A stretch of 48,017 bases of DNA from a virus. This document shows, piece after piece, positions 36,100 to 39,301 of the stretch. Location: IMG/VR virus record IMGVR_UViG_3300046808_000076, positions 1 to 48,017 of that record. One strand, given 5' to 3'. Position 1 is the stretch's first letter, and each line of letters begins with the position of its first letter. The position numbers and the translations under genes were made by a program. A model generated the notes under the pieces. It did no database searches and was not told the DNA's origin. It worked only from the letters and a program-made list of their open reading frames with translations.

Positions 36100-36237
36100 T
36101 TAACACTTATATGGATCTTCCATCGAGATAATGCGCTTTGCTGCCTCATATTTTCCATGTCTTGCTAGACATGCAGCAGCACGTGCCTTACCAAAAGAAA
36201 AAAGCATACATCTTATACGGCATAAAATGGTTTTCAT
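36100..36237 (-). CDS. 45-residue small phage protein
   Basis: Starts at ATG 36237, overlapping the hsp20 stop as TAATG, and ends with TAA at 36100. The product is MKTILCRIRCMLF followed by SFGKARAAACLARHGKYEAA and a short tail. The ARAAxxLARxGKYEEAK pattern recurs in small proteins of T4-like aquatic phages, which supports it despite the size. It is helical and basic; function unknown. Confidence 0.65.
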   Translation of the reverse strand: MKTILCRIRCMLFSFGKARAAACLARHGKYEAAKRIISMEDPYKC

Positions 36238-36713
36238 TATGCTGCTTTCTTCTCAAGAAGTAACTCAGGATCAGATTTAGATGCCTCATCTGAAATCTCT
36301 ACCTTGCGTGTCTTCTTGTGTTCAGGAACGATTCTCTCTAAGAAAATCTTAAGCATTCCATTCACCATACTTGCATTGTTAACAACTACCTGATCATCAA
36401 TTGCAAAGCTGCGAGTGAACGCACGAGTTGCAATTCCTTTATATAGAAACGCTTGCGTGTCATCCTTTGCTTCACCTTTGACAATAAGTTTGTCGTTATC
36501 AAGAGTGATCTCAATATCTTGTTTGCCGAAACCAGCAACTGCCAGTTCAATGACGTATTTGTTTTCGTCAGACTTGTAGATATTGTATGGTGGATAGTTT
36601 GGAATATTCTTGGTCATTTCGTCATGTAACTGTAACATGCGCGACCAATGATCATCGAAACCTACAAATAGTTTATCGAAGTCTTTCCCGAAGACCTGTG
36701 GTAACAATGTCAT
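36237..36713 (-). CDS. hsp20: Small heat-shock protein, Hsp20/alpha-crystallin
   Basis: A 158-residue chaperone. The alpha-crystallin domain runs from about residue 42 to 135: YNIYKSDENKYVIELAVAGFGKQDIEITLDN (read as separate strands), KGIATRAFTRSFAI, and the GMLKIFLER end motif. A short N-terminal arm carries VFGKDFDKLFVGFDD, as in IbpA. Such genes are a hallmark of marine T4-like phages and probably help capsid or replication protein folding during infection. GGAGG precedes ATG 36713. Confidence 0.95.
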   Translation of the reverse strand: MTLLPQVFGKDFDKLFVGFDDHWSRMLQLHDEMTKNIPNYPPYNIYKSDENKYVIELAVAGFGKQDIEITLDNDKLIVKGEAKDDTQAFLYKGIATRAFTRSFAIDDQVVVNNASMVNGMLKIFLERIVPEHKKTRKVEISDEASKSDPELLLEKKAA

Positions 36714-36723
36714 TTGAACCTCC

Positions 36724-36936
36724 TTACTTCTTTACAGAAGTAAACTTGGTGAGTTCTGCAGAAACAACATCAACTGCATCGAATGTTGCTTTGGCAACAG
36801 ACTTAGCGAAATTTGTTTCTACATCTACCAATGTTTGAAGCGCATCAGCCACAGTCTTGTCTTGAACATAGTTCTTGACGAAGATGGACTTAGCACCTTG
36901 AATGGTGTCAATAGTTGTATTTGCGATATGTAACAT
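36724..36936 (-). CDS. Small helical protein downstream of a structured leader
   Basis: A 70-residue, alanine/valine-rich, amphipathic helical protein (VKNYVQDKTVADALQTLVDVETNFAKSVAK region) with an end SAELTKFTSVKK. It looks like a short phasin- or apolipoprotein-type helix bundle. AAGGAG lies before ATG 36936. The 120-base untranslated leader ahead of it contains strong structure, so expression may be controlled there. It sits directly before hsp20 and is likely co-transcribed with it. Function unknown. Confidence 0.7.
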   Translation of the reverse strand: MLHIANTTIDTIQGAKSIFVKNYVQDKTVADALQTLVDVETNFAKSVAKATFDAVDVVSAELTKFTSVKK

Positions 36937-37062
36937 TGCGTTCTCCTTAAGTTAAGCGAGTAAATTGAAATTCGCCACCCCAAATGGGCATGGCAGTTTT
37001 AGTCGGCTTTTATCGTAGTTACCGACTAACTACGTTCCCATCCCTGGGACAATTCTATTTAG
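36937..37062 (-). ncRNA. Putative structured 5' leader RNA with possible pseudoknot
   Basis: On the minus strand this gap contains GTCCC/GGGAC-type stem at 37034-37050, then CGTAGTTA (37034-37027), loop GTCGG, and TAACTACG (37021-37014). A downstream CCGACTAA (37006-36999) can pair with TTAGTCGG, including the loop GTCGG, giving either an alternative 8-bp stem or an H-type pseudoknot. A third stem GCCA/TGGC with CCC/GGG lies at 36974-36994. CTAAATAG at 37055-37062 could be the late promoter. It does not match the riboswitch consensuses I know. Confidence 0.5.
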
Positions 37063-37226
37063 GCAGATTCTGCTTTCTCTGCTTCCGCTTTTTGCATTTC
37101 TGCAACCTGAGCATCGCCTTGCTGTTTGATTTTACCAATCAATGCTACGACCTCTTCAAACGGATGTTTTCCTAACACACGAAGAATAGTATTAACTTCC
37201 TCTACTTTCAATTCAAGTTTGATCAT
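37059..37226 (-). CDS. 55-residue small phage protein after regA
   Basis: Starts at ATG 37226, overlapping the end of regA by 14 bases, and ends at TAA 37059. The product begins MIKLELKVEEVNTILRVLG and ends in an AEAEKAESA tail: a short strand followed by helices. MIKLELxxEEVNxIL proteins are frequent in T4-like phages, always small and unassigned. GAAAG precedes the start; an octamer-like CTAAATA lies nearby at about 37249. Confidence 0.7.
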   Translation of the reverse strand: MIKLELKVEEVNTILRVLGKHPFEEVVALIGKIKQQGDAQVAEMQKAEAEKAESA

Positions 37227-37641
37227 TTCGTTTCTTTCCTATGTTATATTTAGGCACAAGTTCCCACTGTTCCTTCTCCTTAAAGGAGACCACTTTGATC
37301 TGCGATAGAGATGCTTTCTGCTCTGCTCTTGATGGATTAATAATCTTTAACAGTTCCCAATCTTGCAAAAGCGAAGCGATCGCATTCCTGCGCTCGATAT
37401 CACCGCTAGTGATATTCGATTCTTTTCCATCCAATGCAAATAGTTCTTTGAAATGGACGATGAAATACCTGCCTTGCTTATGTAGAATATGGCAAGACTG
37501 GTATAGTTTGTTTTCTTTTCTGGAGGCAATCCCGATACGGGTCAGAGTCTCTCGTACTTTGAGGAAATTGTCTGGTTCGATCAAGTTCACTTCAAGCATT
37601 GACTCAGGCGTCCAGTCATAATAAATCATCTCGACTGACAT
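37213..37641 (-). CDS. regA: RegA translational repressor
   Basis: A 142-residue RNA-binding repressor of early mRNAs. VRETLTRIGIASRKENKLYQSCHILHK (in parts) and the tail VSFKEKEQWELVPKYNIG match T4 RegA closely, with about 20 extra residues at the N-terminus (MSVEMIYYDWTPES). The position next to gp62, gp44 and gp45 is the T4 order. Start ATG 37641 overlaps the gene 62 stop as TAATG. It probably binds ribosome sites of the small early genes. Confidence 0.95.
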   Translation of the reverse strand: MSVEMIYYDWTPESMLEVNLIEPDNFLKVRETLTRIGIASRKENKLYQSCHILHKQGRYFIVHFKELFALDGKESNITSGDIERRNAIASLLQDWELLKIINPSRAEQKASLSQIKVVSFKEKEQWELVPKYNIGKKRNDQT

Positions 37642-38021
37642 TATTTTCCACCTTTTTGTAGTTTTTCTTCAATAGTATTTAACTGCTCTTCAGAGAGTAT
37701 TCGGGCAGCTTCCTTAGCCTTCTGGCTAGAATACCCGAAATATTCTTTGACCAAGAGAATAGCTCTAGTTTCTTTATCCTTTTTTGCCCAAGGACTATAG
37801 CGCTTCTTCTTAGATATACTATTTAGTAAATACAAAAACTGCCAATCTCTAGGTGCATCGTACCTACCGTTCATCTGATTGGCTTGGAAAATGGTATCAT
37901 GGTAAAACGACAACCCTTTATTGACCATAAAAGGGCTGTAATCTTTATTGGCTTGGGGGTCATCTTTAAATAAGTTTTCTTTGGTCTCTGTTATAGCCTT
38001 AATAAAATCAAATGGGCTCAT
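37641..38021 (-). CDS. 62: Clamp-loader small subunit, T4 gp62
   Basis: A 126-residue protein, shorter than T4 gp62 (187) but with its marks: MSPFDFIKAITETKENLF start, YSPFMVNKGLSFYHDTI, and YAPRDWQFLYL-type segment (DAPRDWQFLYLLNS). It binds gp44 in a 4:1 complex to load gp45. AGAGG lies before ATG 38021, 14 bases inside the upstream membrane-protein gene. Confidence 0.9.
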   Translation of the reverse strand: MSPFDFIKAITETKENLFKDDPQANKDYSPFMVNKGLSFYHDTIFQANQMNGRYDAPRDWQFLYLLNSISKKKRYSPWAKKDKETRAILLVKEYFGYSSQKAKEAARILSEEQLNTIEEKLQKGGK

Positions 38022-38347: not shown

Positions 38348-39301
38348 TTACTTGAATTTACATTGAATCATTATTTCAGTAAGAGCAGCCATGGTATTTA
38401 TCTCTTGATCTGCTACGAAAGCAGACTTGTATTGATAGTCCGCCAAGATAACTACTAGTGCAGGAATTGTATTTGGTTCCAGATGTTGACTTGCATTATT
38501 AAACAATTCTCTGAAAAGAGTTGGACAATCCGAATCAGATTGTTTAGCAACCCATTTACGAACCTCTGTGAAGTTTGCATCTTTCAAATGTTTTATCAAT
38601 TCAGTGAACGAGTCTGCGGTCATGTTCACCATGATGTCTGAATCGATCTTACCTGCTACTGAATAGCGTTGAAGTTCATTTAGAATTCTACGATAGTCTG
38701 GAAAGTGTTTCGTGATTAGTTCAGCGACTACTTTAGAGTCGAACTCAATGTTCTCTGTTTTGAGAATTTGAGAAACTCTTTTGAAAAATTGAGCAGCGAT
38801 TGTTTGTTTCTCTGCTGAATCAATCTTGAATTCAACAACAGCACAACGACTATGTAGTGGCTCAATGATTCGATTCTTGAAGTTACATGTGAATATGAAA
38901 CGACAGTTAGAAGAAAACTCTTCAATGAAGTTTCGCAGGGCAGGCTGAACAGACTGGGCATTCATGTAGTCTGCTTCATCTACAATAACAACCTTCTTAG
39001 CATCTGTCAGGGAAACAGTTGAAGCAAAAGATCTGATCGTAGTTCGCAGAGTATCAATACTTCTACCCTCATCTGATCCATTGATCATAATATATTCTGC
39101 GCCAATCTCATTACACAATGCTTTGGCTGCTGTTGTCTTTCCTGTTCCTGCACTACCACTGAACAGGAAAGAAGGAAGTTCTCCCTGTGCGATATATTCT
39201 TTGAATGTTTTCTTTATAGACTCTGGTAAAATGCAATCATCAATCTTCTGTGGACGATATTTCTCAACCCACAAAAAGTGTTCATCACGAGATTCAATCA
39301 T
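38348..39301 (-). CDS. 44: Clamp-loader ATPase, T4 gp44
   Basis: A 317-residue AAA+ ATPase. Walker A GSAGTGKTT at 49-57, Walker B VVIVDEADYM, and sensor-type FTCNFKNRI with an Arg finger near HSRCAVVEF. This is the RFC small-subunit pattern. It loads the gp45 clamp with ATP, jointly with gp62. AAGG precedes ATG 39301. Length matches T4 gp44 (319). Confidence 0.96.
   Translation of the reverse strand: MIESRDEHFLWVEKYRPQKIDDCILPESIKKTFKEYIAQGELPSFLFSGSAGTGKTTAAKALCNEIGAEYIMINGSDEGRSIDTLRTTIRSFASTVSLTDAKKVVIVDEADYMNAQSVQPALRNFIEEFSSNCRFIFTCNFKNRIIEPLHSRCAVVEFKIDSAEKQTIAAQFFKRVSQILKTENIEFDSKVVAELITKHFPDYRRILNELQRYSVAGKIDSDIMVNMTADSFTELIKHLKDANFTEVRKWVAKQSDSDCPTLFRELFNNASQHLEPNTIPALVVILADYQYKSAFVADQEINTMAALTEIMIQCKFK

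Follow-up and report, generated by a model that had tools for sequence, protein, structure and literature searches.

The leader upstream of a 70-aa open reading frame (ORF) and hsp20 in this phage probably forms the start of a late mRNA, with a pseudoknot at the 5' end and, downstream of it, a ROSE-like RNA thermometer that would make translation of a chaperone dependent on heat. This reading draws on the sequence of a viral DNA of 48,017 nucleotides (IMG/VR record IMGVR_UViG_3300046808_000076, the whole of which is called the window here) and on comparison with related loci. The 120-base stretch concerned is the untranslated start of the phage mRNA for the 70-aa protein and Hsp20.

Gene context and the ROSE-like thermometer

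The sense strand of the leader is the minus strand, where the stop of a 55-aa ORF (37059) precedes it and the 70-aa ORF begins after it (36936); a previous sequence-only reading had described the stretch as non-coding, which holds for this strand. Going downstream, all on the minus strand, the genes encode a gp44-like clamp loader (38348-39301), a 112-aa ORF between the gp44-like and gp62-like genes, a gp62-like protein (37641-38021), the translational regulator RegA (37213..37641; PF01818, E 4e-48) and the 55-aa ORF (37059-37226), followed by the leader, the 70-aa ORF (36724..36936) and hsp20 (36237..36713; PF00011, E 2.7e-16). The clamp-loader genes upstream of regA matched PF16790 and Gp44_lid in Pfam. 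The hsp20 product is an IbpA-like small heat-shock protein, matched by tblastn at 44.5% in Pelagibacter phage HTVC008M, while blastn of the leader region against phages gave no matches. Of 200 dinucleotide shuffles of the minus strand, 198 fold less well than the native sequence (z -3.15, compared with -2.38 for the plus strand).

The small putative protein of 70 aa, encoded directly under the thermometer, has counterparts in the same position that were aligned from 14 other loci (alignment A5, n = 15 with the window copy). Two of these 15 members matched Pfam Phasin_2 (best E 0.0086), a weak hint that the family might be phasins; Pfam gave no match for the window's own copy, and a tblastn search with it against phages found nothing. 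A small ORF is often inserted between thermometer and hsp20 in the relatives.

A two-hairpin, ROSE-like element occupies the downstream half of the leader (36996-36943, minus strand). The sequence-only reading had offered a thermosensor as one option, and this part stands, though the structure is found over the ribosome site of the downstream half and not in the pseudoknot; the element itself, with the Shine-Dalgarno (SD) hairpin that is the most telling feature of the leader, had not been named. Hairpin I (36973..36995, minus strand) carries a bulged G36989, and this bulge and the AUGCC..GGGU core are as in Rfam ROSE_3. Hairpin II (36943..36960, minus strand) is a predicted fold, CUC-G-CUUA / UAAGGAG, recovered in both R1 (a model described below) and ROSE_3 matches, where the UCGCU motif (36959-36955) pairs with the Shine-Dalgarno sequence AAGGAG (36948-36943) and G36957 is bulged. 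The leader thus has what defines ROSE-like elements, namely U(U/C)GCU paired with the SD around a bulged G, and two hairpins with the SD in the 3'-most. By anatomy, its assignment as a short ROSE-like thermometer is supported.

At gathering thresholds Rfam found no family in the window. With permissive thresholds on 551 bases, ROSE_3 (RF02523) scored 29.5 bits (E 4e-4) in an end-to-end alignment that preserves both the bulged G in hairpin I and, in hairpin II, the pairing UUACUCGCU...AGGAG. As this score is below the gathering cut-off of 43 bits, the leader is not filed in ROSE_3. A ROSE_3 search of 42 records reached 39.9 bits at best, with none of the 42 over the cut-off; it missed the window's own leader, listing 22120 at 10.1 bits, which we attribute to a loose first pass. 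Our own model, R1, made from 44 other sequences with the window not among them, recognised the leader at 40.7 bits (E 4.7e-8), the next best score in the window being 8.9 bits.

The closest known systems are the short ROSE-like thermometers of Pseudomonas ibpA, described in PMC3669281 as having, likewise, two hairpins with a bulged G in hairpin I, U(U/C)GCU paired with the SD in hairpin II and a small heat-shock gene downstream. The present leader differs in its phage setting and its late-promoter-like box, which stands in place of a heat-shock promoter, and also in its weaker hairpin II, its added 5' pseudoknot and the small gene before hsp20.

The pairing of the ribosome site also bears on the earlier suggestion of a RegA-type control site, for which the position of regA just upstream of the leader would speak. 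In a T4 review, RegA sites are A+U-rich and lack structure, and they contain an AUG together with a 5' poly(A) tract (PMC3014915), whereas the site here reads AAGGAGAACGCAATG, with a spacer AACGCA and a paired SD. A purely DNA-level element, such as a terminator or recombination site, is disfavoured by the covariation set out below and by the SD pairing, both of which point to RNA, and no T-run follows the stems on the minus strand. We regard a RegA site or DNA-level element as highly improbable.

The thermometer in related phages and bacteria

A search with the window Hsp20 returned 130 related stretches, 80 loci of which were kept. In almost all of these the arrangement recurs, placed before hsp20 itself or before a small gene followed by hsp20. 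We assembled 44 non-redundant thermometers of fixed loop length, the window excluded (alignment A2, the source of R1). The two-hairpin structure is paired in 100% of the A2 cells, and there are 69 double-changed cells against 13.3 in shuffles and at most 27 when the partners are slid, with a covariation score of 0.446 against 0.117; counted by pairs, those with any double change number four, which is not above the shuffles (3.7). Covariation is confined to hairpin I; for hairpin II, which hardly varies, the evidence is one of conservation and not covariation.

R1 matches 77 of the 80 hsp20 loci at E <= 0.01, and the three misses (L012, L072 and L079) begin inside or just before the gene. Several of the 80 loci contributed to A2, which makes the window and the named phages the cleaner tests of R1. 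Thirteen named phage records were picked solely for having hsp20, and 12 of them show an R1 match just before the gene: Syn33, P-SSM4, Mosig, S-CREM1, C48C1, P-RSM1, Sf-FR1, P-TIM40, metaG-MbCM1, S-CAM8, S-RIM12 and HTVC008M, the last a weak match of 17 bits. The thirteenth, Campylobacter phage A11a, has no R1 match before hsp20. S-CRM01, S-PRM1 and MED4-213 also match R1, having been found through the thermometer itself and so not selected by hsp20. The S-CREM1 record annotates a glnA riboswitch near hsp20 (L328:503-601) and no thermometer.

We also scanned viral contigs with the hairpin II pattern ACTCGCTTA..AGGAG..ATG. Among the matches listed, at least 120, at least 91 stand directly before hsp20 and at least 13 before a small gene followed by hsp20, while at least seven are cut by a contig end and at least nine lie elsewhere. 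Small proteins directly after ACTCGCTTA..AGGAG with no adjoining hsp20 were seen at L108:4048-4299, L134:2131-2382 and L129:1522-1710. On viral contigs, weak R1 matches were seen before an AhpC-like gene (L094:2479-2525, minus strand, 18.3 bits) and a DnaK-like gene (L203:1179-1215, minus strand, 15 bits), both genes being named by eye.

The element extends to bacteria, where R1 matched 27 of 80 hsp20 loci at E < 0.01, each time before hsp20, in a set that may include viral contigs. In E. coli, R1 found the ibpB leader (L613:3907-3953) at 11.2 bits with the same ACUCGCUU..AGGAG pairing, and did not find the ibpA leader. Given the bacterial matches, the thermometer is shared with ibpA-type genes of some bacteria, and the phages probably acquired it with the gene.

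In a further reading the leader is chiefly a protein operator: Hsp20 would bind its own leader and repress it when misfolded protein is absent, so that temperature acts through the protein. Self-repression by E. coli IbpA acts through the 5' UTR of its mRNA and depends on Arg93 and on an aromatic residue at position 34 (PMC10474464). The phage system resembles it in these residues and in a thermometer-type leader; when aligned to the E. coli protein, all 14 phage Hsp20s examined have Arg93, and each has either Y or F at position 34. These residues may, however, be retained for the chaperone fold, R93 is reported as common in alpha- and gamma-proteobacterial IbpA (PMC10474464), and an Hsp20 operator alone does not explain the UCGCU/SD hairpin. 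We consider this possible, though less likely than not. Such an operator can coexist with a thermometer, in which case Hsp20 would be a possible second input.

The 5' element, the pseudoknot and element X

Upstream of the thermometer is a conserved 5' element, TCCCAGGGATGGGA (37036..37049, minus strand), with a UCCC/GGGA hairpin. Its GGGATGGGA motif occurs once in the window, where 0.14 occurrences are expected. A scan for promoter plus 5' element returned 121 sites, 83 of them with a thermometer core within 420 nt, 31 with none and seven too short. The promoter-like box of the window is CTAAATA (37056..37062, minus strand), a degenerate T4-type late-promoter-like sequence overlapping the stop codon of the 55-aa ORF. 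Its TAAATA stands 6 nt before TCCC, the usual spacing in related leaders. Loci gathered independently of any promoter provide 31 unique 5' elements. In 20 of these, a TAAATA begins between 11 and 15 nt (most often 12 nt) ahead of the first pyrimidine tract; by chance 2.85 of 31 would be expected to have it anywhere in 40 nt. The related locus L245 has a perfect TATAAATA at the corresponding place. The window's 8-mer agrees with this T4-type late box at six of eight positions only, though at the relatives' fixed spacing, and a scan of the window allowing at most one mismatch to the late-promoter box did not find it; on its own the window's box is weak. In the named phages the 5' element is missing (GGGATGGGA absent from 15 of 15 loci) and a TAAATA-like box often stands directly before hairpin I, so that in the named cyanophages with this arrangement (L321-L329, L411-L416) the transcript would begin with the thermometer.

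The pseudoknot directly follows the 5' element (TCCC..GGGATGGGA). The sequence-only reading had seen in this region an 8-bp stem (37034-37027/37021-37014) with a GTCGG loop (37026-37022) and an 8-bp alternative stem (37029-37022/37006-36999) in which GTCGG pairs with CCGAC, and both are confirmed letter by letter. It had left the fold as mutually exclusive or pseudoknotted. Of these, the second is borne out, as one H-type pseudoknot (36999..37034, minus strand) with stem 1 at 37034-37030/37018-37014, stem 2 at 37029-37022/37006-36999 and an A-rich loop 3 of 7 nt (37013-37007). The two 8-bp stems share bases 37029-37022, but they need not exclude each other if the top three pairs of the first give way, leaving 5 bp. 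None of 300 dinucleotide shuffles of the window sequence reaches its pseudoknot score, and one of the 300 gives any pseudoknot of that layout.

Support from relatives comes from leaders that contain both the 5' element and a thermometer core, 95 of them distinct and 46 left after redundancy removal. An H-type pseudoknot of the template layout, starting at most 3 nt from GGGATGGGA, is present in 26 of these 46 leaders against 0.46 expected from dinucleotide shuffles; the template was framed after the sequences were seen, and the same template was applied to the shuffles. Of the 20 leaders left over, ten show the beginning of another RNA, element X, inside the 52 nt examined; the others have a different fold or none that was recognised. 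Across 19 alignable relatives, 98.9% of pseudoknot cells are paired and 59 are changed on both sides, where shuffles give 20.0 and sliding the partners gives no more than 12. Covariation in homologous phage leaders had been proposed as a check, and both pseudoknot helices covary in this 19-sequence subset. The window's own subtype comprises few sequences (nine), and support for the window rests on the template scan of leaders. L245 keeps 36 of the 37 letters of the window pseudoknot, the whole locus being 69.75% identical. The H-type pseudoknot is supported by covariation in relatives.

One candidate role for this pseudoknot is that of an operator of the T4 gene 32 type, the nucleation point from which a single-strand binding protein would spread over the ribosome site. 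The T4/RB69 gene 32 leader likewise has a pseudoknot at the 5' end in a T4-like phage, about 28 nt in T4 gp32 control, beside a weakly structured stretch of more than 40 nt with UUAAA repeats, so that an unstructured UUAAA-rich ribosome site follows and gene 32 is controlled (PMC535899). The leader pseudoknot here is also at the 5' end, but what follows it is two stable hairpins with the ribosome site inside hairpin II, the genes downstream are the 70-aa ORF and hsp20 and not gene 32, and in the named phages the thermometer occurs although the GGGATGGGA element is missing; we think this role improbable. A ligand-sensing riboswitch aptamer placed before the thermometer, making a two-input leader, would agree with the compact H-type fold, the A-rich loop 3 and the modular position upstream of an expression platform. 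Its helices and loops are highly variable, with 19 stem 1 and 22 stem 2 sequences among related leaders, and no Rfam riboswitch was matched at gathering thresholds in the window, nor up to E 10 in the leader. There is no sign of the riboswitch of the sequence-only reading, and we hold an aptamer to be quite unlikely. Our preferred reading is that the 5' half of the leader, a terminal hairpin stacked on the pseudoknot, would most likely act as a rigid 5' cap that prevents the leader from misfolding with the thermometer and/or slows 5'-end-dependent decay.

Element X is a 57-85-nt RNA seen between the 5' element and the thermometer in relatives only and not in the window, with a core ACCUUAGG...CUGGAnnnCGUAACCAG (or CCCUGUAnnnGUAAGCAGG); examples are L075:2110-2193, L034:2863-2931 and L226:2226-2321, among others. 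Rfam has no match for it. In one subtype (22 relatives) there are six helices, some pseudoknotted, with 96.8% of cells paired and 52 double changes against 15.4 in shuffles, for a structure drawn by eye from the very alignment tested. A thermometer core lies no more than 110 nt away at 248 of the 267 element X sites; 13 lack one and six are cut off. Element X also stands before genes other than hsp20 (L422:11176-11238, L468:586-661, L493 and L606) and so is not strictly tied to the thermometer; in L468 and L493 the ORF that follows is metallophosphoesterase-like, as named by eye.

Proposed heat control and its reach

Transcription would probably start at a T4-type late promoter, giving an mRNA in whose leader the 5' half is predicted to be a terminal hairpin stacked on the H-type pseudoknot. 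At low temperature UCGCU and flanking bases would pair with AAGGAG around one bulged G and hide the ribosome site; on warming, the weak hairpin II would loosen in vivo and let ribosomes enter, while the GC-rich hairpin I should stay folded. In silico the SD is more hidden in the relatives, where its median unpaired value at 20 °C is 0.10 (172 relatives), compared with 0.30 after upstream shuffling and 0.36 in the 23 SD-bearing gene starts of the window, a set that includes hsp20 itself. In nearest-neighbour folding the SD of the leader has an unpaired value of 0.01 at 25 °C and 0.04 at 42 °C; the ROSE_3 consensus behaves alike, so these values are non-discriminating, and folding energies predict sharp melting neither for the leader nor for the consensus. 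Hairpin II is worth -3.5 kcal/mol against -7.8 for the ROSE_3 consensus hairpin, and being weaker it would suit cooler habitats.

Calculated without pseudoknots at 37 °C, the minimum-energy fold of the whole leader (-35.9 vs -30.3 kcal/mol) instead has the 5' element paired to hairpin I, and hairpin II persists in it. We do not take this long-range fold as the conserved one, since it needs CCCAU in hairpin I, which is mostly missing in relatives (CCUUCGG and others). The preference for the long-range fold might be balanced by the additional helix of the pseudoknot, worth about -10 kcal/mol as a duplex.

The thermometer covers the 70-aa gene, and the SD of hsp20 itself is not hidden (unpaired about 0.39 at 37 °C), so control of hsp20 here would need translational coupling. 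Such coupling to the 70-aa gene is suggested by the hsp20 SD, which overlaps the stop codon of that gene.

Phage RNA thermometers already described are lambda cIII, the SPbeta blyA fourU and the Caudoviricetes sigma70 fourU (PMC11182007), phage-encoded leader structures which, like the present one, control access to the ribosome site. As presented in that source they are of cIII or fourU type, none of them ROSE-like or before hsp20. We found no report of a ROSE-like thermometer in a phage or before a phage hsp20 in the open PMC literature, subscription papers and preprints lying outside this scope, and the terms "thermometer" and "untranslated" are absent from the available text of two papers on cyanophage small heat-shock proteins (PMC3827213, PMC5028025). 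What is new here is the occurrence in a phage, together with the late promoter and the pseudoknot module.

A wider reading, which we put forward tentatively and with some doubt, is that T4-like aquatic phages have lineage-wide composite leaders made of a late promoter, interchangeable pseudoknotted modules (the H-type pseudoknot of the window, and in relatives element X with its several pseudoknots, for which Rfam has no match) and a ROSE-like thermometer, making late chaperone output dependent on temperature and on a second signal that the 5' modules would read. The Robo-Therm paper counts blyA as only the second phage thermometer and adds a third (PMC11182007); if the present reading is true, ROSE-like phage thermometers would make up a family whose loci number well over a hundred, in which covarying 5' pseudoknots would form a second layer atop the thermometer. 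The purpose of hsp20, listed among the core genes of cyanophages, is described as unsettled (PMC7674155). A thermometer before hsp20 would, if true, mean that temperature is sensed by cyanophages and pelagiphages while they infect, which is open to testing in named phages, among them S-CRM01, P-SSM4, Syn33 and HTVC008M.
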